Virus record (IMG/VR): IMGVR_UViG_3300035137_000026
Location: 1-64,000 of that record
Source of the DNA: a virus
Strand: one strand, 5' to 3'
Length of the DNA: 64,000 nucleotides
Under the pieces are notes generated by a model. The model ran no database searches. It was not told where the DNA came from and saw nothing but the letters and a program-made list of their open reading frames with translations. Shown here piece after piece: positions 796 through 43,479 of the stretch (position 1 is the first letter of the stretch; each line of letters begins with the position of its first letter). The translations under genes were made by a program, and so were the position numbers.

Positions 796-2235
796 TTACT
801 TGTATATATCAGAGATATCAACAGTATCGTTTCTTGTGGCCATGTCGTATAGTATATCTATATTAGTGTGGCCAAACTCTATCTGGTAGTTGTATGCTTT
901 CTCAAGGATCGGACCAAACTTCACCCCAGGTTTCATGCCCCGCTCAATTAGGTGTCGTACCATAAGGATGGGCTTGATCTCTGAAGCTGGGCTGCCTAGT
1001 TCTCTATGGACTTCCATCGTTTTGATAAAGACTGGGTCCTCTTTGCCAAGTCTCTCTGCCTTTCTACCACGTCCATCACCGTCAGCAATAGAAACATAAG
1101 CAAGAATATTAAGAGGGCATACATTCTGCAGCCGTCTCCATGTAGCCCTTCGGGGACTGCTCTTCAATAATAGCCGGGGCCTCATGTGTACCTTGACTAT
1201 GGCACACACCTTATTTATTAGGTCCTGGTTTGTAGTTAGCCGCTTCATGAAGGCTCGAGCTAAAGGCTCGCCTTCCTTGTCGTGGTTAATGCTGGTAAGA
1301 TGGCCCTTCTCCTTATCGAATCTGGTGGCCACAGCCTTACCTACATCATGTAGGAGCATACCCCACATGAATGGTAGCCTCCACTCCTCAGGCAACTCAT
1401 CTCTGTATCTAGCAGCCTTGTCTACTACCATGAGGGTGTGAACCCAGGCATCGCCTTCAGGATGCCACTTCTCCCACTGCTTGCAGCCAATTAGGGTTTC
1501 TAGCTCGGGAAATAGTCTTATCATGCAGGGGTTGTCGTATATGTCCTCAGACTCTGTTCTGCCCATCTGCTTGAGGCCAATAGATGGCTGGTCTGCTAGC
1601 ATGAGGAGCTTGTTCATCTCACCTAGGATTACGTCTCCTGTGAGATGCTTTAGGCTCTCATGCATGCTACAGACTAGCCGGTGCAGTCCAATAGTCCAAG
1701 ACCTAGCCTTACGTGCCACTAGTTGGACAGCTCTGAATGCTCTGAGTGGGTCCTCTGTGAAGGTGGTTTTGTCTACTGGGTGTAACTTGCCAAAACGTAG
1801 GTTGTCCATTCCATCGAAGGGGTCAAGGAATATACCAGTCTCAATGTCATAAGAGATAGCATTGATCGTAAAGTCTCTTCGTCTGGCAGCCTCTTTGACT
1901 GACATATCAGGGACTAGCTCAATGTCAAAGTCTTTATGCTTAGGGCCTGTATGGTTGTCCCAGCGGGGCACAGAAAGCTCAATGTCTATGCCGTTGTGTA
2001 CAACCTTCACGACTCCAAACTTCTGACCGATGAGGTCTGCCTTACCGGCGATCTCTTCGGCTGATTCCAGAAGTTTTTGGTAGCTTAGGCCGAATACCTC
2101 AAGGTCCCAGTCCTTGATATCTCTGCCCTGGATGAGGTCTACCACGCCTCCACCTACTAGGTAGGCCTTCCCGCCTTGGTCTCTGATATCATAGACTAGG
2201 CTGAATACTTCCTCTGGTATATTATAAGCCGTCAT
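796..2235 (-). CDS. cca: tRNA nucleotidyltransferase (CCA-adding enzyme) with HD domain
   Basis: Adds or repairs the 3' CCA of tRNAs. The N-terminal polymerase-beta-type domain has GGGVVD followed by DWDLEV (metal-binding carboxylates) near residues 28-45, and the class II signature RRRDFTINAI near residue 120. The C-terminal half has the HD phosphohydrolase motif LLHDVGK. About 479 aa, normal for long bacterial Cca. The start at 2235 overlaps the upstream stop (ATGA) and has GAGG in front. The encoded tRNAs lack CCA in the DNA, so this enzyme would be needed to mature them. Confidence 0.93.
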   Translation of the reverse strand: MTAYNIPEEVFSLVYDIRDQGGKAYLVGGGVVDLIQGRDIKDWDLEVFGLSYQKLLESAEEIAGKADLIGQKFGVVKVVHNGIDIELSVPRWDNHTGPKHKDFDIELVPDMSVKEAARRRDFTINAISYDIETGIFLDPFDGMDNLRFGKLHPVDKTTFTEDPLRAFRAVQLVARKARSWTIGLHRLVCSMHESLKHLTGDVILGEMNKLLMLADQPSIGLKQMGRTESEDIYDNPCMIRLFPELETLIGCKQWEKWHPEGDAWVHTLMVVDKAARYRDELPEEWRLPFMWGMLLHDVGKAVATRFDKEKGHLTSINHDKEGEPLARAFMKRLTTNQDLINKVCAIVKVHMRPRLLLKSSPRRATWRRLQNVCPLNILAYVSIADGDGRGRKAERLGKEDPVFIKTMEVHRELGSPASEIKPILMVRHLIERGMKPGVKFGPILEKAYNYQIEFGHTNIDILYDMATRNDTVDISDIYK

Positions 2236-2468
2236 GTCCTCAGCTGGCTTCCGATAGCCTCGGTAACCTGGTTTACCTTGCGAGCATCTCCCCAAACAGT
2301 GACGGTAAATACGGTCATAATCAGGAAGTTGTCTTCCTTATACTCAATCTTGAGTATATTGGGGGATCTCTTAGGCTCATCTAGCCAGCTGTCCAGCATT
2401 TGCTTGGCCTTCTTGGCGGCCCAGATTGGCACGGTAAATTGGGTTTCTTTTCCTACTGGTGACTTCAT
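2232..2468 (-). CDS. Hypothetical protein, 78 aa
   Basis: Small soluble protein with an alternating beta pattern in the C-terminal half (IEYKEDNFLIMTVFTVTVWG). Coupled by 4-bp overlaps to the lipoprotein upstream and to cca downstream. No family recognised. Confidence 0.7.
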   Translation of the reverse strand: MKSPVGKETQFTVPIWAAKKAKQMLDSWLDEPKRSPNILKIEYKEDNFLIMTVFTVTVWGDARKVNQVTEAIGSQLRT

Positions 2469-13072: not shown

Positions 13073-13678
13073 CTAAACCTTAATGTACATGTTTGGTACT
13101 TCATCTACAAGCCAGACACCATTTTCTGAGAGATAAAATCTATACCCGTTTTGTACCATTGGCAAGGTATTAATTTTTAGGACTACCGTTTGTCCTCCAT
13201 GCCGGCGACCAACCTCTTGTGCTGTCTCGAGGTCTGCTGATAGGTGAACATGGTGTCTCTTCATCTTGTTGAGGCCACCAGTCATCTTTATCTGCTTGAA
13301 TCTCTCCGCTGTTGTACCATGATATAGTACTGGAGGTGGCATCTTGTCCTCAAAGGTCATACCAACATCAATACTATGTCCTTGATTCGCACGAATCTTC
13401 CTCTTGTCATCATTATAGGAGAACCGTTGCTTGTTATTCTTTTCTACTACACGATCTAAATCGTTATGTGAGATGGCTAGGCCATACTTGGATAGTTGGT
13501 TGAGTAGTGTTTCCACATCTGCCCAGCCACCCTTCTCTAAAGTTATTCCTATCTTCTCAGGCTTGTGGCGTAGGAGAAGAGAGAGAAACTTACTTGTCCT
13601 TTTATCCTTATGAAACTGCTCAGACTTAACTTGCTTCTCATGTCTGTAGCGCTTCATATATTCTTCATTCAGATCCAT
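13073..13678 (-). CDS. kptA: RNA 2'-phosphotransferase (KptA/Tpt1)
   Basis: 201 aa. Removes a 2'-phosphate at an RNA splice junction using NAD+, giving nicotinamide and ADP-ribose 1'',2''-cyclic phosphate. Seen: SKFLSLLLRHKPEKIGI (N-terminal winged helix with the RHxP motif), IRANQGHS, VLYHGT, HHVHLSAD and the final GVWLVDEVP. Length and motif order match the family. Adjacent to the RNA ligase; its NAD+ demand links it to the NAD genes at 33-38 kb. Confidence 0.95.
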   Translation of the reverse strand: MDLNEEYMKRYRHEKQVKSEQFHKDKRTSKFLSLLLRHKPEKIGITLEKGGWADVETLLNQLSKYGLAISHNDLDRVVEKNNKQRFSYNDDKRKIRANQGHSIDVGMTFEDKMPPPVLYHGTTAERFKQIKMTGGLNKMKRHHVHLSADLETAQEVGRRHGGQTVVLKINTLPMVQNGYRFYLSENGVWLVDEVPNMYIKV

Positions 13679-14666: not shown

Positions 14667-14777
14667 TACTCCAGACAGGATTTGATATCTGCAATATAGA
14701 GACACAACAAAGTTACTCTACCACTTAGAAAGCCTTAATAAGACAATGTGCTGCGTCTAACTTCCGCCACTGGAGTA
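14667..14777 (-). ncRNA. tRNA-Leu-like gene with enlarged anticodon region
   Basis: Acceptor TACTCCAG/CTGGAGTA, then TG-GCGG-AAGTTAGA-CGC (Leu/Ser-type D-arm). GCACA and TGTGT can form the anticodon stem but enclose about 40 nt rather than 7. T-arm GCAGA-TATCAAAT-CCTGT. It may contain an insertion of about 33 nt; the anticodon cannot be fixed. Confidence 0.4.
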
Positions 14778-14784
14778 TAAATAA

Positions 14785-15066
14785 CTAGTAGTGTGCTATT
14801 ACGCCAAATACTCTAACGGTCTCTAAAAGCATCTCCAGTTTTTCGTTCCTACACACTTGAACTGGATTAAGTCTATGGCTTAGCCCATGAACATTGCATA
14901 TCTGCATTACTTTTAGAATTGTACTTGTTTTTCCCGTAAGTAGTTACTACTAGGGTGTTGTAGTGGCTCCCGTTCGCTTTTCATAGATTAGCTATGCCTC
15001 TTACTATCACTAACTACTTTCGTAACTCTTTAAAGGATGGCCGCTTCTAAGTCCACCTCCTACTAG
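14785..15066 (-). ncRNA. 23S rRNA GTPase-associated-centre mimic with 220-nt insertion
   Basis: 5' part 15066-15026: closing strand CTAGTAG, GGAGGTGGACTTAGAAGC, GGCCATCCTTTAAAGAG, matching 23S helix 43 (E. coli 1051-1090) including the invariant loop with A1067. 3' part 14805-14785: GGCGTAATAGCACACTACTAG matches helix 44, including the GTAATAGC block with A1095, and its end pairs perfectly with the 5' CTAGTAG. 14806-15025 is an insertion with its own stems (CATAG/CTATG, TCTAAAAG/CTTTTAGA). Confidence 0.65.
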
Positions 15067-15070
15067 ATTG

Positions 15071-15197
15071 TACGGGTGGCAGGATTTGAACCTGCACGGT
15101 AGCTTGGTAATCACTCGTAAAGAGCGGACTCGAACTGCTAGAGCTACCTAACTCCTGCCACATACCAAGTTGTGTTTAACCATTCCACCACACCCGT
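15071..15197 (-). ncRNA. tRNA-like gene with about 50-nt insertion in the anticodon loop
   Basis: Acceptor ACGGGTG/CACCCGT, D-arm GTGG-AATGGTTAAA-CAC, T-arm GCAGG-TTCAAAT-CCTGC and discriminator A are all good. Anticodon-stem strands CTTGG and CCAAG (extended CTTGGTA/TACCAAG) enclose about 57 nt. A mature loop T+TGATTA would give GAT (Ile). The insert also contains GTGGCAGGA, complementary to TCCTGCCAC in the T-arm. Confidence 0.5.
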
Positions 15198-15206
15198 ATA
15201 ATAAAC

Positions 15207-15296
15207 GAGCTAGCACGTCTGACTAGAGAGGCCACCCCCGTACCAGACTGTATCCAAATTTGTGACCCGGTTAAAGGTAAGATTAGATGCTAGCTC
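15207..15296 (-). ncRNA. Structured element E3
   Basis: Perfect 9-bp terminal stem GAGCTAGCA/TGCTAGCTC. Contains CAGTCTGGTA and CTAGTCAGACG, which pair through GTCTG/CAGAC. The same two blocks occur in E4. Strand inferred. Confidence 0.4.
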
Positions 15297-15368
15297 AATG
15301 GGCATATTTATCTTGAGGGTTCCCTCTTGCACGTGCACTCAATTCCCTGCCCAGGGTGTTGATAAGTT

Positions 15369-15426
15369 AACTGGTGCGTCTGACTAGTCGACTTTTACCA
15401 GACTGCAGTCCACCTGGGCACCAGTT
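15369..15426 (-). ncRNA. Structured element E4, related to E3
   Basis: 9-bp stem AACTGGTGC/GCACCAGTT around CAGTCTGGTA...CTAGTCAGACG. An alternative fold pairs GCCCAGG with CCTGGGC (down to 15347) as a 72-nt tRNA-like shape with D-arm GACT/AGTC. Two exclusive folds are possible. Confidence 0.4.
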
Positions 15427-15428
15427 TA

Positions 15429-15501
15429 TGGGCGGTGAGAGACTCGAACTCTTGCTGTCTGCCTTGTAAGGGCAGCATTTTAGCCACTAAATTAACCACC
15501 C
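15429..15501 (-). tRNA. tRNA-Val(TAC)
   Basis: Acceptor GGGTGGT/ACCGCCC, anticodon stem CTGCC/GGCAG with loop CTTACAA, T-arm AAGAG-TTCGAGT-CTCTC, discriminator A. Confidence 0.95.
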
Positions 15502-29554: not shown

Positions 29555-31195
29555 CTAGATACGAGCACTAACAAAATCGCTGATGATGTTAGGTGTCGCC
29601 GAGTCAAAGCCTGCGATGTCCATTGAGTTTGCATCCTGAGGATCACAAACTGTGTAGTGTGTTGCTGTGGTTGCACAAACAACCAGCTTGGAGTCAATTC
29701 CTATCTTCTGACGGTACTGCTCCAATGCCACACACGGATGGACACGGCCACTATGGGTATCGTTGTCTGTGTAGATTACGAACCCATCGGCCTGGATCTT
29801 ATTCTTCATGGCCCAAAGCATCGGCATGGCACAATTTGTACCACCCCAACCGGTGCTGTTAGCCTTATGCATGGCCTGCTTTAAGGTATCCTTCCGACTG
29901 ATTTTCAGGTCCTTGAACTGGTGCGTGAAGCCCATTGTGTAGCAGTCATGCTTCTCGGTACGTGCTGTTACCATAGACATTGCACATGCAACCATGCGTG
30001 GGGTTAGGCCACTGATGCCCATCACACCGCCACCTAGGCTGCTTCCCATAGATGGTGATACGTCTAGACCGAGAATCATTCTCTTGCCTGTTGGTTCTAC
30101 GTTCCCGAAGGATGTGTAGAATGCATCGTCTAGGGCATCTAGAATGGAGCGTACTGGTTTCCAGCTTAGACTGCCTCTAAGGCCATGACCCTCTTCATAT
30201 TGCTTGAGAGCAATGAGTACCGAGATTGGGTGGATTCTGGAATGCTGGATTGCCTCCTCATTCCCGAGCTTTTGGCAGACCATGCGGGCAGCTGAGCTGT
30301 TCTGCTTAAGCAGCCCAATGCTAGTCATCTTACCCAAGTTCCGCACCATAGCCATTATTGGCATACCCTCGAGCATAGCTTCCCAGACATTTGCACTGTT
30401 CAGCATCTTAGTTGGTACAACCTCACGTGGTAGGTTGTTAGCCTTGATTAGCTCAATGGCTTTCTTCTCACTAGCATTCTTGATTGCATTGCATGCCTTC
30501 AGGAATGGCGGGAGGATAAGTCCCTTATACTTATGGTTCCTGTCAGCTACGTTGCCTTCCTTGTCGGGGCGTACATCACCACAAACCCATTCGTAGATGG
30601 CCTCATGCTTAGCTGATTCTGGAACTACGTGAGCCTTGCGGAGAGCATCTCTTGCGCTCCAGCCTTCACGCTGCTTGTACTTTGCAACCTGGTAAGCTAG
30701 CTTCTCGGCTGGCTTCTTGTTAAACCAGTTTGCCACGGCGTTACGCATGTTTGTACCCCAACCACCACCTAGACTCTTACGGAACTCTAGGAACTGGTAG
30801 AGGTGCGTACCAATGCGGCACACCTTATGCAAGTTGGCGAATGCAGCCTTCCTGGTCTTCAGGTCTGGGCTGCAGCTTGCCATTGCTAGTACGTATACTG
30901 CCTGGTCATTCTTAGGAGCCCGACCATTGGTGGAGATCTCTACGACCTCATTGACCACTCTGACTCCGTCTTCTTTGAGGCAAGCCTCGACGTTTGTCAG
31001 GTTCTTTGTGGTAAGCTTACGCTCATTCACGTAGTAGGTCCCGCCTTCGGAACCTAGGATCAGGAACCTACGAAGCCTGTTCCACCTGTCTACTGAGAAG
31101 ACGTAGGCACCTTCAGAGTTTTTGATCTGACTGTCTCTCAGCTTTTCATGCTGGGGGACTCTCGTTTTGTCTGTCGCTCTCTTAAGGTAACTCAT
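29555..31195 (-). CDS. rsr: Ro60/TROVE-domain RNA-binding protein
   Basis: 546 aa. N-terminal TROVE part ([29 protein letters not shown]-type start, [15 protein letters not shown] HEAT-like repeats) forming a ring that binds Y RNA and misfolded RNA ends. The C-terminal vWA domain has the MIDAS motif [10 protein letters not shown] and later TDNDTHSG. Full length for the family. In bacteria the orthologue works with Y RNA and PNPase in RNA surveillance. Its downstream region carries the Y-like units. Confidence 0.95.
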   Translation of the reverse strand: [546 protein letters not shown]

Positions 31196-34817: not shown

Positions 34818-35076
34818 TCTTCATTTCGCTTTCTACGCTATTGAAAGCGTCCTTAATTGTGGTCTCTACGGTTCCAGCCATTGAGTCTAGGATAAAGTTC
34901 CAGTTATGGACAAAGACTGGATCAGAGTCATTCTCTACTGGTAGTCTGTTTCCTTTGAGTTGAGTGCAGACGAGCTGCATGCCGTCAAATAGGCCTTGAA
35001 GATACAGAGCGATCTGGTCGTGACTGAAACCTTGGCCTGACAGCTTCCTTAGGAGATTCGCAATGATTTCTTGCAT
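34744..35076 (-). CDS. Hypothetical protein, 110 aa
   Basis: Helical protein (LLRKLSGQGFSHDQIALYLQGLF). The C-terminus overlaps nadE by 74 nt in another frame and pncB overlaps its start by 28 nt. Confidence 0.6.
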   Translation of the reverse strand: MQEIIANLLRKLSGQGFSHDQIALYLQGLFDGMQLVCTQLKGNRLPVENDSDPVFVHNWNFILDSMAGTVETTIKDAFNSVESEMKNELKKRNTESSPVDKEILPNSRND

Positions 35077-36245
35077 AGTGCTATCTCTTCTTCTGTGCCA
35101 GTATGCTTGCCTTCAGTATCAGATAGCTTAACAACAGGTAGCCACTTACTCTCTCCATATGGCTTGCAATGGCTCATCTTAATAACCATATTAAGTGGCT
35201 TAACGCCTTTAATGTCATTGGTAAGGTTGGTGCCAATGCCAAATGAGCACTTGATCCCTATGTTATCACATTCTTTCTTGAGTTTTGTGGCTACTAGTGG
35301 GCTCAGACTGTCTGAGAATACAATTGTTTTGGATTCAGGGCTGATTCCTAGCTCTATATAATGGTCTTTGACTCTGTGTGCAAAGGCGAATGGGTCGCCT
35401 GAGTCATGCCGTACACCGTCGAATAGCTTGGCGTACTTGGAGCCAAATACCCTAAAGAATGACCTGCTGGTGAATGTATCAGGTAAGGTAATTCCTAGGT
35501 TTCCGTGATATACGTCAACCCAGTGCTTGAGTGCCATATGGTTTGCTTCTTGGTATCCGTACTTGGCTCCATGAAACATGAACCATTCATGTGCCTGCGT
35601 TCCAATAGGTTTGGTAGCATATTCTTGAGCTAGGTGTAGGTTGCTGGTGCCAACAAAGTTGTCTGGTGCAGTAATGGAGTGAACATGCACAATACCGGCA
35701 TGGTGTTTGGCTGAGAACCTCCTGCGAGTGCCAAAGTCAGCATATGCTATGCCAGCCTTGGTAAGATCTTGTGCCTTCATTGCGGTACGGACCACTGCTT
35801 CTTGGATTGAATCTTCATCTGCTTTGGCTGTCATCCTGAAGTACAGCTCGGAGATGACTGCCATCAGCTTCACTTCCCATAGAATTGTGCGGTACCATGG
35901 ACCTTTGATCATAACCCACAATCTACCATCTGGCATGCAGGTGGCGTTCACATCTTTGTAGTTGTATTGATAACCTCTCAGGAAATCGATGAAAACTGGG
36001 GTTAGGAACGGGCAGGCTACTTGAAGCCAAGCTGCCTCATCATATGTGAGGTGCAAGTCTCCCATCATCTCTATCTCTTCCTTTAGCCGGTTAATAAACC
36101 CTTTTGGGAATTTTGTGTTCCCCCTATTGGTAAAGTTATAAATAGCTTGAGCATGTGGATAGCACTGGCATACAGCTTGGCACATGGTCAGCTTGTAGAG
36201 GTCGTCATCCAGCATGCTTTTAATGATTGGAGTGGCCGAGCCCAT
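35049..36245 (-). CDS. pncB: Nicotinate phosphoribosyltransferase
   Basis: 398 aa. MLDDDLYKLTMCQAV N-terminus, YADFGTRRRFS, HDSGDPFAFAHRV and FGIGTNLTND phosphate-binding end are NAPRT motifs. Converts nicotinic acid and PRPP to nicotinate mononucleotide. Because a nicotinamidase and NadE are present, NAPRT fits better than NAMPT. Confidence 0.9.
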   Translation of the reverse strand: MGSATPIIKSMLDDDLYKLTMCQAVCQCYPHAQAIYNFTNRGNTKFPKGFINRLKEEIEMMGDLHLTYDEAAWLQVACPFLTPVFIDFLRGYQYNYKDVNATCMPDGRLWVMIKGPWYRTILWEVKLMAVISELYFRMTAKADEDSIQEAVVRTAMKAQDLTKAGIAYADFGTRRRFSAKHHAGIVHVHSITAPDNFVGTSNLHLAQEYATKPIGTQAHEWFMFHGAKYGYQEANHMALKHWVDVYHGNLGITLPDTFTSRSFFRVFGSKYAKLFDGVRHDSGDPFAFAHRVKDHYIELGISPESKTIVFSDSLSPLVATKLKKECDNIGIKCSFGIGTNLTNDIKGVKPLNMVIKMSHCKPYGESKWLPVVKLSDTEGKHTGTEEEIALCKKSLRIS

Positions 36246-37782: not shown

Positions 37783-39162
37783 TTATTTTGCTTTCATATT
37801 CATGATTGGTTTTATCTGCTCAACCAGCCCGACTGTTGGAATAATAGCTTGCTGGATCTCTTCTGGGTTTTTGTATGCTTCCGGCGCTTCATCCAGTGGG
37901 ATGGCTGAGGTATAGATGCCGTTCATTGCTTTCTCGGCATCTTCTTGCTTTAGTATCTGCTTAGCTTTGGTGCGGCTCATAGCTCTACCAGCACCATGCG
38001 GAGCCGAGAAGTTCCAGGACTTTTCTGCCCATCCTGTACAGATCCAAGTACCGTCCTTCATATTGAACGGAATGATGACTTTCTCTCTGTAGGCAGCAAC
38101 GGCCCCCTTTCGGATTATGAGGTCCTTTGGGCTAATGTAGTTATGTACTGTCTCTACCTGCTCAAGTATTGATCTGCTAACCCTTTCGGTTGCAAGAAGT
38201 CTTGGTCTTAGCCTGTTCTGAACTGCTGGCTTAGGAACAATGTTGCTCAGGACATCCTGCATAATGGCAGCTCTGTTATGGGTAGCATAGCACTGGGCAA
38301 ATGCCATGTCGTATAAATAGTCATACATAGCCTTGCCCATAAGTGGTTCCAAGCCCTTCTGGCTAATGCCGCTAGTGATTCCAAGCTGTGCTCGTAGCTC
38401 TTGGATCTTCCTCTGGGTGTCTTTGGGTGATGTAGTCTTCTTGATTTGCTCAATCTGCTGCTGGTAGTTACCTTCCGTTGACTGCTTCTGCATTGCGGCG
38501 GCGAGTCTTTGGTGGTATTCGCAGACATTTTTGCCTAGCTGTCTTGAGCCGCTATGAACTATTACCCATAGAAGATCTTCGTTGGTTGATGAGATCCCTA
38601 TCTCGATGAAGTGATTCCCACCACCAAGAGTGCCAATTCCATTGAGTGCTCTTTGGAAGTCCTGTCCTATCTTGGCGCAAAGTGCTTGAAACCAAGTATG
38701 GTTGATCCTAGGTGGTTTTGGAGTGCTTGTACCAAACTTTTCACGCAACCTAATCCACAGTTGGTCCAAGCTTGATTGTGCCTCGGTGTAGAACTTGTGA
38801 CCGTCTTCGAGAGCATAGGTTCCGGTTGTATGATAATGTACTTCGAAACCGAATGGGATTCTGTCTCTGATTTGTTTATCTAGAGCGGCTAGATCCATGC
38901 CCTTCGGCTTCTGTATCTGGATACCGAGCATTCCACAGCCGATATCTACTCCAACCACGTTGGGGATAACCATCTCTGTCAGTGGCATAGTGAATCCAAT
39001 TACGGATCCTTTGCCAGTGTGGCAGTCTGGCATAATTCTGACTGGCTCAGTGAATGCCGGGTGGTTAAGCATGGTATAGATCTGACTAATACACTCTTGC
39101 TCTACATTCTCTTGCTTGGCAAAAATAATTGCCTTTGAGTATCGTCCCTGGATCTCGAACAT
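37783..39162 (-). CDS. rtcB: RNA-splicing ligase RtcB
   Basis: 459 aa from ATG 39162. Motifs: MPDCHTGKGSVIG, VGVDIGCGM (Mn2+-binding Asp/Cys), LGGGNHFIE, VHSGSRQLG and APHGAGRAMSR containing the His that is guanylylated. Joins 2',3'-cyclic-phosphate and 5'-OH RNA ends using GTP. Sits directly before thg1 and the NAD genes. Confidence 0.96.
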   Translation of the reverse strand: MFEIQGRYSKAIIFAKQENVEQECISQIYTMLNHPAFTEPVRIMPDCHTGKGSVIGFTMPLTEMVIPNVVGVDIGCGMLGIQIQKPKGMDLAALDKQIRDRIPFGFEVHYHTTGTYALEDGHKFYTEAQSSLDQLWIRLREKFGTSTPKPPRINHTWFQALCAKIGQDFQRALNGIGTLGGGNHFIEIGISSTNEDLLWVIVHSGSRQLGKNVCEYHQRLAAAMQKQSTEGNYQQQIEQIKKTTSPKDTQRKIQELRAQLGITSGISQKGLEPLMGKAMYDYLYDMAFAQCYATHNRAAIMQDVLSNIVPKPAVQNRLRPRLLATERVSRSILEQVETVHNYISPKDLIIRKGAVAAYREKVIIPFNMKDGTWICTGWAEKSWNFSAPHGAGRAMSRTKAKQILKQEDAEKAMNGIYTSAIPLDEAPEAYKNPEEIQQAIIPTVGLVEQIKPIMNMKAK

Positions 39163-39182
39163 TGCTTTATATCTCAACAGAG

Positions 39183-40028
39183 CTAAAACTCGAAGGCTGG
39201 TGGTAATGGTTCTGCGCCCTCGAAGATACACTCTACCCGGTTAGGGATACTAGTTAGCTTAGGAAACACGACCATCTCAACATCAGTTCGTTCGATTGTC
39301 ATGTTGGGGTTCTTTCGTGCATAGTGTTTGGGTGGAAGTTGTTCTATCTCTTCAGCTATGAATGGTCTTTTCCTCTTGACTCTCCTGAAGTAGGAGCCTC
39401 TCTTCTCCTGTGGAGAGTAATGGTTCCAGTTAATCCCATATTTTTGGAAGAGCATTTCCTGAAGCTCTGGTGTCTGCTTCCCTTGCATCTCCTGATGGGA
39501 GAACTTGCTTTGTGCCACTGCTAGGATGCTGTTTCTGGTGGCATCCAGCTCCCTCCAGATTAGACAGTTTACAGCCTCTGTGAGTGATGGTACCTGAAAT
39601 ACACGGCAATCGAAGGTAGCTGGCGGCTTGTGGAAGAATAGCTGTGCACGTTCGTTCATATCTGCTTTAACAGTTTTCTGTACTTCTATATTGAAGTAGG
39701 CTGTGCACATGCTTGCTAGCACACTATTCATCTTCTGGAGCTTGCCATCGAAGAAGATTTGGCTCTCTATATCGTCGCTGTAGAATATAAGGGTGATTTC
39801 ATCAGATTGGGTGTATCCAATAACAGCGCATGTCTCTTGTACGAGTCTCTTTGTGGTGATCTGCATCATCTCCATGAACTTGCTATCGAATGGGCGGTCT
39901 AGGCCTTTAGTCCATGTGTGGAATGCTCTCCCGTCGAGGCGGGCAATTATAGGCAGAAGTGGAATTGCTTTCATTGCCCAGTTCTTCTCGTAGAGCTTTA
40001 TTCTATCGCTAAGTGTTATCTTATCCAT
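39183..40028 (-). CDS. thg1: tRNA-His guanylyltransferase-like 3'-5' polymerase
   Basis: 281 aa from ATG 40028. IIARLDGRAFHTWTKGLDRPFD and IGYTQSDEITLIF carry the metal-binding carboxylates; FDCRVFQVPSLTEAVN and ATRNSI follow as in Thg1. Adds nucleotides to 5' ends; Thg1-like enzymes can also repair truncated or mispaired tRNA 5' ends. Confidence 0.94.
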   Translation of the reverse strand: MDKITLSDRIKLYEKNWAMKAIPLLPIIARLDGRAFHTWTKGLDRPFDSKFMEMMQITTKRLVQETCAVIGYTQSDEITLIFYSDDIESQIFFDGKLQKMNSVLASMCTAYFNIEVQKTVKADMNERAQLFFHKPPATFDCRVFQVPSLTEAVNCLIWRELDATRNSILAVAQSKFSHQEMQGKQTPELQEMLFQKYGINWNHYSPQEKRGSYFRRVKRKRPFIAEEIEQLPPKHYARKNPNMTIERTDVEMVVFPKLTSIPNRVECIFEGAEPLPPAFEF

Positions 40029-40226: not shown

Positions 40227-40721
40227 TTACCTCCAACTGGTGTCGCCCTCTAGGGTATAGACGACAACCTCTACATCTTGGGCAAGGAGGGTTTCTTTGA
40301 TAAGGCCCTCTATGACCTGCCATGTGCCGCCTGCTAGCCCGCAACCAATACGGGGAATATGTACACTGGCTTCTTGTTGCTTAGCATGTGTGGCTAGCTT
40401 GTTAAGGCACTGGCGGACCCTGTCGTATCTGATTGGAGGGATGTTTCCGTAGGGCTTGGTGTCGTGTTGTCCGATCATGTTGCAGACGTAAGTGTCGTCC
40501 TCAACCTGGACAAGTTGTGTCATGCCGAGAGTAAAATCTGGCATGTCATCTGCACCTTTTGCCCAGTGGCGATAACTCTTCTCGGGAAGCTCCCACTTGT
40601 TTGAAAGGGCAACCACGAAGCCACGACCCCATCTGCCTTTGTTGTTGCAGATGTGTGCAATAATTTTGTTTCCGTCGCCTTGTGGCTCGAGAGTATCACC
40701 TGTTACGTACTTGATCGTCAT
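40227..40721 (-). CDS. Macro-domain protein (ADP-ribose 1''-phosphate phosphatase type)
   Basis: 164 aa. MTIKYVTGDTLEP...NKIIAHICNNKGRWGRGFVVALSNKW is the ADP-ribose-binding start, and VHIPRIGCGLAGGTWQVIEGLI the second loop, as in Poa1-like macro proteins. These remove the 1''-phosphate from ADP-ribose 1''-phosphate, the product downstream of Tpt1. Confidence 0.9.
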   Translation of the reverse strand: MTIKYVTGDTLEPQGDGNKIIAHICNNKGRWGRGFVVALSNKWELPEKSYRHWAKGADDMPDFTLGMTQLVQVEDDTYVCNMIGQHDTKPYGNIPPIRYDRVRQCLNKLATHAKQQEASVHIPRIGCGLAGGTWQVIEGLIKETLLAQDVEVVVYTLEGDTSWR

Positions 40722-42028
40722 TAACTGATCTCTTCTGGGTCGACGTATTCGTCGTTATTCTTAGCAATACCTTCTAGCTCACAGAACCAGAAGCTCTTAT
40801 ATTTGTAGTGAGTCTCTACATTAGGAGCTTCTACTCTGAGAACGATACCTTCTCTGATATGGTCAGTATCGAGTAGAGAATTCCCTTGGGATAGTTCCTC
40901 ACATAGTTCTAGTAACTTACTACTATCACCATCATAAATGAATGGTTCTTTAATCTGTGGAACTGTGTCTAGTCCTAGCTCTCTACAACGTGTAACCATC
41001 TGTGTCCATGGTAATTCAGTTACCTCTCTACCTGGACCAGTTCTGGTGATTCTGTAGACTGCAATCTTGTATGTTCCTGGGTCGCAACCATATTTGTACA
41101 CCATCTTGGTTCCATACTTCTTCTTGAGTTTGGAGTCTTTGATGTTGTGCGCACCCATAATCAGGGCACCATCTTCAGAGTACCCTACAATTTCGTAGTA
41201 TAGGGTTTCTCCATCTTGAAGTCCTATATCCCTGATTTTATTATGGATAGTTGCTCTGAATTGTTTACCAGAGTAGTATCCTCCGTCGTCCACTTGTTTA
41301 GGGTCCAGGACCACACGTCGGGAACCAGTGACGTACTTGTACTCGCTGGTCTTAAATTTCTCTCCAAATATTTTATTCCAGGTTCTCTTGAACCAACCGA
41401 GTTCCTTAACCTGACGAAGCTTTCCTGTGCGTGCAGAAGTACCATGTATCTTCTCAGAGATTGAGAGTATTGCTCCAGCTGGGATGAGGTCTACCATCAT
41501 CCTAAGCTTCTGTGTATTGAAGTGCTCACGGAAGTCTGGGAATGATTCCTTTAGGATTCTCTTTGAGCTGCGGCGATCCTTATTTGTCCCACTCCCCATC
41601 ATCTTTCTAGTAGCTGGGGTGTAGTACTTATTACAGATTGGCTTACCATTTAGCTCATCGATTAGGTCACCTTTGGTGAGCCTCTCTATATCAAAGCCAG
41701 TCCACTTGAGCATCTTTAAAGGAACCCAGTAGCCCATAGACATTTCTTTACGAAACCTTTGTGCTCTCACACGTCGGTTGTCATCAAAGAATCCAGCCTT
41801 AGCTTCTGGGTTGGCATTTAGGTGTGTGTGCCTATGTAAGTTATTTCGCTGGCACATCTCCAAGCTTAGCTGTCCGTCTTCAGGAAAGAAGATGCCTAGC
41901 GTGCCTTCTACTATATCTGTAGAGATGATAACTTGATGCCCAGCGGCAGTACCCAGCATAAGCCTATCGGCATTAGAGTGAGATCTTATGTTCACGATAG
42001 GTGTAATAATTGCTTTATAGTTACTCAT
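40721..42028 (-). CDS. RNA ligase, Rnl5/DRB0094 type
   Basis: 435 aa. The N-terminal OB-like domain resembles that of DraRnl (HSNADRLMLGTAAGHQVI). Motif I is SEKIHGTSAR with the Lys nucleophile, YYEIVGYS motif III, IREGIVLRVE motif IV and HYKYKSFWF motif V. DraRnl seals nicks with a 3'-OH RNA strand. Its stop overlaps the macro-domain start by 1 nt. Confidence 0.9.
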   Translation of the reverse strand: MSNYKAIITPIVNIRSHSNADRLMLGTAAGHQVIISTDIVEGTLGIFFPEDGQLSLEMCQRNNLHRHTHLNANPEAKAGFFDDNRRVRAQRFRKEMSMGYWVPLKMLKWTGFDIERLTKGDLIDELNGKPICNKYYTPATRKMMGSGTNKDRRSSKRILKESFPDFREHFNTQKLRMMVDLIPAGAILSISEKIHGTSARTGKLRQVKELGWFKRTWNKIFGEKFKTSEYKYVTGSRRVVLDPKQVDDGGYYSGKQFRATIHNKIRDIGLQDGETLYYEIVGYSEDGALIMGAHNIKDSKLKKKYGTKMVYKYGCDPGTYKIAVYRITRTGPGREVTELPWTQMVTRCRELGLDTVPQIKEPFIYDGDSSKLLELCEELSQGNSLLDTDHIREGIVLRVEAPNVETHYKYKSFWFCELEGIAKNNDEYVDPEEIS

Positions 42029-43119: not shown

Positions 43120-43132
43120 TATCTTACCTTGG

Positions 43133-43157
43133 TGGACCCATGTGGCATCGAACCGCA
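43133..43157 (-). other. tRNA T-arm/acceptor-like fragment
   Basis: TGCGG-TTCGATG-CCACA followed by TGGGTCC plus A. No complementary 5' strand seen nearby; the upstream 43,210-43,290 stretch is not a cloverleaf. Confidence 0.3.
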
Positions 43158-43282
43158 GTCCAAACACTATCCATGTATAGATCGTTACATGCTTAGTCTA
43201 CTCTATCCAACCATCTACCAGTGGATATCATAAATGGAGGTTTTGTCTTTTGTGTTTCGCCGCTGATATAAAGACAAACTCT

Positions 43283-43348
43283 GGCGGCTAGTTACATTAA
43301 ATTGCGCCTCGTCCAAATATGTAATCTCATTGGATTTGGCGGCTAGTT
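43283..43348. repeat. Two copies of GGCGGCTAGTT in a non-coding stretch
   Basis: The 11-mer occurs at 43283 and 43338. The whole 43158-43479 stretch has no clear gene. Just before 43480 a hairpin ATAGCTTC/GAAGCT(T)AT inside GGGC/GCCC follows the upstream gene's stop and may be a terminator or small RNA. Confidence 0.4.
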
Positions 43349-43479
43349 TGCTTACGCAGTGGCTAGCATAGGTTGTACATCGTTGCCGATTGTACTTTGG
43401 TTACTTTCTAATCTGGTACAACCATCCAGGGCATGCACTATAAGCTTCATTAGTACCCGTCGAAGCTATGTCAAGCCCA

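Follow-up and report, generated by a model that had tools for sequence, protein, structure and literature searches.

An RNA that folds as the GTPase-associated centre (GAC) of 23S rRNA is found next to the tRNA genes of many unrelated bacterial viruses. It is described here from a window of 64,000 nucleotides (the whole stretch of DNA that was analysed), which belongs to an IMG/VR virus record of 197.7 kb. On the minus strand of this window, positions 14785-15066 correspond to the 58-nt GAC (helices H42-H44, E. coli 1051-1108), split by 220 nt. No Rfam 15 family matches the RNA, in the window or in the other loci, and no published description of it was found in the open-access literature searched. 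To our knowledge, phages have not been described as carrying a functional domain of rRNA in a separate copy. With slightly less than even confidence, and jointly with the reading of partner capture and redirection given below, we regard these RNAs as a widespread and previously unnamed class.

A split GAC among phage tRNA genes

Read along the minus strand from C15066 to G14785, the RNA has the order CUAGUAG-GAGGUGGACUUAGAAGCGGCCAUCCUUUAAAGAGU-(216 nt)-UUUG-GCGUAAUAGCACA-CUACUAG, or, divided in another way, CUAGUAGGAGGUGGACUUAGAAGCGGCCAUCCUUUAAAGAGU, 216 nt, UUUG and GCGUAAUAGCACACUACUAG. In E. coli numbering, 15060 is equivalent to G1055, 15025 to U1090 and 14804 to G1091, and the outermost nucleotides 14785 and 15066 pair with each other. 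The first-pass annotation had proposed a phage-borne GAC mimic with both hairpins at exactly 14785-15066 and a 7-bp stem joining its ends; profile scores and comparison bear out the mimic, and the pairing of the stem is perfect. The same annotation placed the insertion between H43 and H44, and this has to be corrected, as the break lies inside the H44 stem, between U1090 and G1091. When the insert is left out, sequence comparison gives a junction, AAAGAGU-GCGUAAUAGCACACU, that is near the bacterial AAAGAGU-GCGUAAUAGCUCACU. A single A.C mismatch, 1063.1075, is found in H43.

Family profiles scored the window at 50.1 bits for the 5' half and 33.2 bits for the 3' half, values slightly favoured because the window is one of about 100 profile sequences, whereas the maxima over 20 shuffles of the whole 64-kb window were 1.3 and 14.8 bits, respectively. 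The covariance search with the Rfam LSU model and the structure prediction, both suggested in the first-pass annotation, did not recover the domain: the LSU model had no match to 14785-15066, and RNAfold by itself gave no GAC in the window (z = -0.9). The evidence for the GAC is comparative, not energetic. Features of the RNA and of its surroundings are collected in Table 1.

Table 1. Coordinates of the GAC RNA, its parts and related genes in the 64-kb window
Feature	Position	Strand	Remarks
tRNA nucleotidyltransferase (CCA enzyme)	796-2295	-	
Tpt1/KptA 2'-phosphotransferase	13073-13678	-	
H42 3' strand CUACUAG	14785..14791	-	pairs with 15060..15066
H44 hairpin GC-GUAAUA-GC-A-C, 1091-1102	14793..14804	-	A1095 = 14800; phage-type A1101 = 14794
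UUUG linker	14805..14808	-	nearly invariant among phage copies; bacterial 23S rRNA lacks it
Inserted domain, 216 nt	14809..15024	-	hypervariable among phages; closing helix 15024-15022 / 14811-14809 (UAC/GUA)
Insert helix CUAAAAG, partner CUUUUAG 14823-14829	14910..14916	-	equivalent helix of other sequence in XacN1, L131 and Mimasvirus-type relatives (alignment)
Insert helix CGG, partner CCG 14817-14819	14934..14936	-	compensatory GGG/CCC in subfamily relatives (alignment)
1082-1090, with H44 5' strand GAGU	15025..15033	-	lone tertiary pair 1082:1086 (15033:15029); A1088 = 15027
H43 hairpin, E. coli 1057-1081, loop UUAGAAGC	15034..15058	-	A1067 = 15048; 1058:1080 is the top covarying pair
H42 5' strand CUAGUAG	15060..15066	-	7 perfect pairs with 14785-14791
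tRNA with about 50 extra nt in the anticodon arm	15071..15197	-	Rfam tRNA, 41.6 bits; missed by ARAGORN
Ro60 (TROVE + vWA)	29555-31195	-	
RtcB	37783-39231	-	
RNA ligase	40721-42028	-	
tmRNA	43130-43478	-	Rfam, 71.7 bits

The minus strand encodes the larger ORFs of the window and nearly all of its about 20 tRNAs, and the tRNA with the enlarged anticodon arm ends only 4 nt upstream of the RNA, in the same orientation. Across loci with a detectable tRNA, the median distance from the RNA to the nearest one was 14 nt, while random placement within these loci gave 390 nt. When the nearest tRNA lay within 1 kb, it was on the same strand in 79 cases and on the opposite strand in none. ORFs covered 25% of the RNA, as opposed to 69% for random placements. 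The RNA is not inside a 23S gene, its neighbours being tRNAs and phage genes, and no protein neighbour was shared among 52 neighbouring proteins. No other 23S piece was detected in the fetched viral loci, and 185 of 185 blastn hits were to the GAC portion. This closeness to tRNAs, together with the common strand, the avoidance of ORFs and the restriction to the GAC, is the pattern of a stand-alone RNA derived from tRNA transcripts.

Several other elements were observed in the window, all on the minus strand. A tRNA-like element at 14667-14776 directly follows the GAC RNA; it has a T-arm-like 3' part, a long body and a perfect 7-bp stem of the acceptor type (ACUCCAG/CUGGAGU), and could be of the Y-RNA (YrlA) type since the phage encodes a Ro60 homologue. 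Two consecutive stem-closed RNA repeats with a common inner GUCUGGUA...CUAGUCAGACG hairpin lie between tRNAs at 15212-15430. A second, incomplete H43-like hairpin (GGAGGUUGGCUUAGAAGCAGCCAUCCUCAAUG..., 21.4 bits) extends from 22412 to about 22350, after a tRNA-Leu (22508-22424); it has no UUUG/H44 half and does not keep A1088. With Ro60, RtcB, an RNA ligase, Tpt1/KptA and a tRNA nucleotidyltransferase, the RNA repair set is unusually full for one phage. A nicotinate phosphoribosyltransferase gene (NAD salvage) is found at 35049-36245.

Covariation of the GAC fold and variability of the insert

Mutual information was calculated, without supervision, for 2850 column pairs in 104 non-redundant sequences, and the top 14 were all expected pairs: seven of H42, 1057:1081 and 1058:1080 of H43, the latter ranking first, the tertiary pair 1082:1086, and four pairs closing the insert. 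Among 34 diverse sequences, 93.9% of cells were paired and the covariation score was 0.689, compared with 0.158 for shuffled and 0.083-0.182 for slid controls; all seven H42 pairs change on both sides in some of these relatives. H42, H43 and 1082:1086 are supported by covariation, and the RNA has the GAC fold, with the pairing pattern of H42, H43 and H44, the U1060-A1088 combination and the lone pair 1082:1086. The hairpins, whose lack of conservation in related phages was among the refuting conditions named in the first-pass annotation, are strongly kept in other phages.

The phage RNA shares with the bacterial 23S GAC the order and sequence of H42-H43-H44, U1060 and A1088, the pair 1082:1086, and the loops UUAGAAGC and GUAAUA. 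It differs in lying outside an rRNA gene, in its UUUG linker and in having H44 split by a domain of 51-365 nt. Further differences emerged from a bacterial reference of 29 distinct GACs, collected by DNA query and representing three phyla. The pair 1082:1086, which was UA in 29/29 bacterial GACs, is free to covary in phages, where UA, CG or AU occur; therefore, the phage RNAs evolve independently while the tertiary fold is kept. Position 1101, U in all 29 bacterial GACs, is A in 98% of phage copies and is matched by U1090, so that a U1090:A1101 pair stands in place of the bacterial A/U:U.

Since several values of 100% in pattern-selected sets were imposed by the regular expression, a sample unconstrained on the 5' side was preferred for single positions. 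In this sample, U1060 and C1072 were each kept in 88/88 sequences and G1071 in 87/88. The loop tips (1067-1070 and 1095-1097), which face factors and thiostrepton, were freer than in rRNA (A1067 75/88, G1068 71/88, A1070 67/88, A1096 27/42), whereas the core was not. A1088 was present in 125/125 copies, a count partly imposed by the search pattern, and in 72/88 of the unconstrained sequences when compared without gaps, many of the misses plausibly being 1-nt shifts. RNAalifold also allowed another form of H44, with the UUUG linker paired to 1102-1103, and H44 may therefore switch between two forms.

The insert is highly variable. Its helix begins immediately after U1090, with the first three pairs formed in 100, 99 and 94% of 125 loci and with four pair types, and its 3' end consists of the closing helix followed by the near-invariant UUUG. 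Sequence clusters of the insert are small, except for one with 32 members, which have a 3' hairpin in common (GGCACCCCGUAACUGGUAAGGCU type); as a group, inserts fold slightly better than shuffles (median z = -0.7). The subfamily to which the window belongs includes XacN1, XaC1 and the Mimasvirus/Eneladusvirus jumbo phages, and the alignment reads as a compensatory change in an inner helix, with CGG/CCG in the window and GGG/CCC in the relatives.

Distribution among bacterial viruses

At least 125 distinct copies were gathered from IMG/VR contigs, cultured jumbo and T4-size phages, and prophages, with two IMG/VR pattern scans returning at least 120 matches each. BLASTN searches of phage records identified pf16, UNO-G1W1, XaC1 and XacN1 with the 5' half, and Kaldavass and XbC2 with the 3' half, and the complementary half was found at the expected spacing in every one of them. 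Other cultured carriers are Aeromonas phage 4_4572, Pseudomonas phages Milchi and Astolliot, Cronobacter GAP32, Pectobacterium CBB, Serratia BF and several Erwinia jumbo phages. Among the matches listed, starting from the 3' half only recovered the 5' half upstream in 112 of 117 loci, with at least 23/36 matching positions (best shuffled value, 23), and starting from the 5' half only recovered the 3' half downstream in 111 of 118 loci, with at least 14/18 (best shuffled value, 13).

A length-limited IMG/VR scan, which would catch 7 of 79 known members, gave 19 matches; combined, these figures suggest roughly 200 carrier contigs among 2.9 million, meaning that the RNA is widespread across phages and not common. 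A search of 84,980 bacterial and archaeal genomes with the two-half pattern gave five loci. Neighbouring genes were compared at four of them, L214 being the fifth: at three, those tested are phage structural genes or tail fibres, and at the fourth (L212) two proteins had no match.

Two further arrangements were encountered. In Pseudomonas phage Astolliot (L205) and in L021, a diverged 3' half (UUUGGUGUCAUAACACGCC / UUUGGUGUAGUAACACGCC) occurs in tandem just upstream of the intact copy, with a compensatory C-G to U-A change at 1092:1099. In two phage contigs, GAC-like hairpins were seen without a phage-type insert half (L130 at about 3720 and L150 at about 5134, 0-based), the GAC of L130 being uninterrupted and located just before a tRNA-Leu-like sequence; these hairpins are possibly a second class of mimic.

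Candidate functions and related systems

The conserved phage unit coincides with the 58-nt L11 site, a domain that folds autonomously and is tightly bound by the C-terminal domain of L11 (PMC3592554, PMC4409310). We see about an even chance that this stand-alone RNA from tRNA transcripts, folded as a GAC, captures the L11 of the host, with the variable arm acting as effector. In such a scheme, the RNA would be transcribed together with the phage tRNAs and, as its position suggests, probably released by the enzymes that process these, and would adopt H42, H43, H44 and the GAC tertiary contacts, as covariation indicates. The GAC copy would most likely capture host uL11 through its C-terminal domain, and the arm in H44, connected by a three-way junction that includes the UUUG linker, possibly faces a second, host-specific partner. 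The likely result would be either the withdrawal of L11 or the presentation of a false L11 site, and, as the least certain step, L11-dependent functions such as RelA activation and translational GTPase control may be altered in the infected cell.

L11 capture is judged the most likely function because the strictly kept positions are those of the fold and the loop tips are freer. Judged from sequence, this freedom fits selection for binding of the L11 C-terminal domain or for the fold better than mimicry of the tips facing factors or thiostrepton. The L11 concerned would be that of the host, since no uL11 gene was present in 20 phage records. Simple titration of L11 may be weak, given that ribosomes far outnumber the usual regulatory RNAs and that E. 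coli can live without L11; a domain placed at 1090/1091 could also clash with L11, and the extreme variability of the arm goes beyond what L11 binding alone explains. A broader reading, to which we give somewhat less than an even chance, is that a trans-acting phage RNA captures L11 or another GAC recogniser and that its fast-evolving H44 arm redirects the captured partner, for example blocking RelA-dependent alarm signalling or reprogramming translation during infection.

Unlikely, but the best placed of the alternatives, is a GAC serving as a rigid tertiary module that orients the arm in an RNA-only or phage-protein complex with no ribosomal protein. The genomic niche common to GOLLD and ROOL (PMC12286853) would suit such a module, and the conserved nucleotides include the expected holders of the tertiary fold, with the exposed loop tips relaxed. 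However, any fold could serve a bare scaffold, and the near-identity to bacterial rRNA is maintained across diverse phages even at unpaired A1098, A1103 and G1071.

Less likely again, in our view, is a decoy role: much as phage tRNAs can evade anticodon nucleases, the RNA might serve as a substrate, sacrificial or variant, that draws off a host toxin or defence system acting on the 23S GAC by cleavage or modification. The window phage is rich in RtcB, RNA ligase, Tpt1/KptA and the CCA enzyme, and the loop tips, the likely site of attack, are more variable than in rRNA; yet an attacked loop would be expected to be kept, the large arm is left unexplained, and no consistent repair gene was found among the 52 neighbouring proteins. 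We know of no host defence directed at the GAC, which also weighs against a decoy. Its location in tRNA arrays would agree with one, such arrays having been linked to the evasion of tRNA-targeting defences (PMC10264068).

Competition for a translational GTPase or RelA at the GAC (EF-G, EF-Tu, IF2, RF3 or RelA), instead of for L11, appears improbable. The GAC is the working site of these factors, and RelA contacts the thiostrepton loop (PMC5829649). However, A1067, G1068, A1095 and A1096, which lie near the factors, are the positions least conserved relative to rRNA. Isolated GAC RNA binds factors weakly, which further argues against this role.

An intron-like reading, in which a 23S piece carries an intron and is perhaps spliced, had been raised in the first-pass annotation and is now barely credible. 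The last nucleotide is U in the upstream part and G in the insert, in keeping with group I splice sites, and the joined ends (AAAGAGU/GCGUAAUAGC) are bacterial-like, but the inserts have no common core and are closed by their own covarying helix. In the window region, the group I model RF00028 gave nothing even with E values up to 10 allowed, and in 20 loci nothing reached the gathering threshold. Group II and other intron families also gave no Rfam match, the window region yielding only tRNA at E up to 10, and an archaeal BHB intron was rejected from the pairing, as the insert helix follows U1090 directly with no 5' bulge. The interrupted copies in IMG/VR number more than 100, while phage-type copies lacking the interruption were sought there and not found, and the insert is therefore regarded as a permanent additional domain and not as an intron.

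That the RNA is contaminating host rRNA or a piece of a degenerate rRNA gene has a negligible probability: 23S sequence similarity and an INPHARED match in Paenibacillus phage Pd_22F would favour it, but the latter is a real, full 23S gene and was discarded as a family member, a true 23S motif occurs in a single IMG/VR contig, so that contamination from the host is excluded as an explanation in general, the sequence was not seen within a complete host rRNA operon, and the fixed phage-specific A1101, UUUG and insert, the compensatory changes and the lack of other 23S pieces in the fetched viral loci all speak against it.

Among known systems, the closest in kind to the proposed L11-capturing RNA are GOLLD and ROOL, for their niche, and the cis-acting ribosomal-protein leaders, for the principle of rRNA mimicry. 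GOLLD and ROOL, neither of which is known to us to contain an rRNA domain, are likewise large structured RNAs of phage and prophage tRNA islands, a location that the GAC RNA shares, but the loci studied here have no Rfam match to either. GOLLD has been reported to bind ribosomes, and nanocages have been described for GOLLD and ROOL from phage tRNA islands (PMC12286853). Leaders of the L10, L1 or S15 type also imitate the rRNA site of a ribosomal protein; these act in cis upstream of ribosomal protein genes, whereas the phage RNA stands alone in tRNA arrays, and a leader was rejected here, with no uL11 gene in the 20 records and no common neighbour. The T4 stable RNAs C and D (species 1 and 2) are comparable in being stable RNAs, other than tRNAs, located where a phage tRNA cluster ends, with unknown function (PMC3014915, PMC9697503); they were rejected as members, their best profile scores being within the random range with no GAC signal. 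OLE RNA, which binds bS21/RpsU, is another large RNA for which sequestration of a ribosomal protein has been proposed, but it is bacterial, membrane-associated and differently structured, with no copy of an rRNA domain.

Phages carry tRNAs, tmRNAs and some ribosomal proteins, and the present findings suggest that viruses also handle the ribosome by means of a decoy of its own part. Cultured carriers, including pf16, UNO-G1W1, Astolliot, GAP32, CBB, BF and XacN1, are at hand. If L11 is bound, the RNA would give viruses a new, RNA-only means of manipulating the ribosome or the stringent response, and would provide a testable function for some of the unexplained RNAs of phage tRNA islands.
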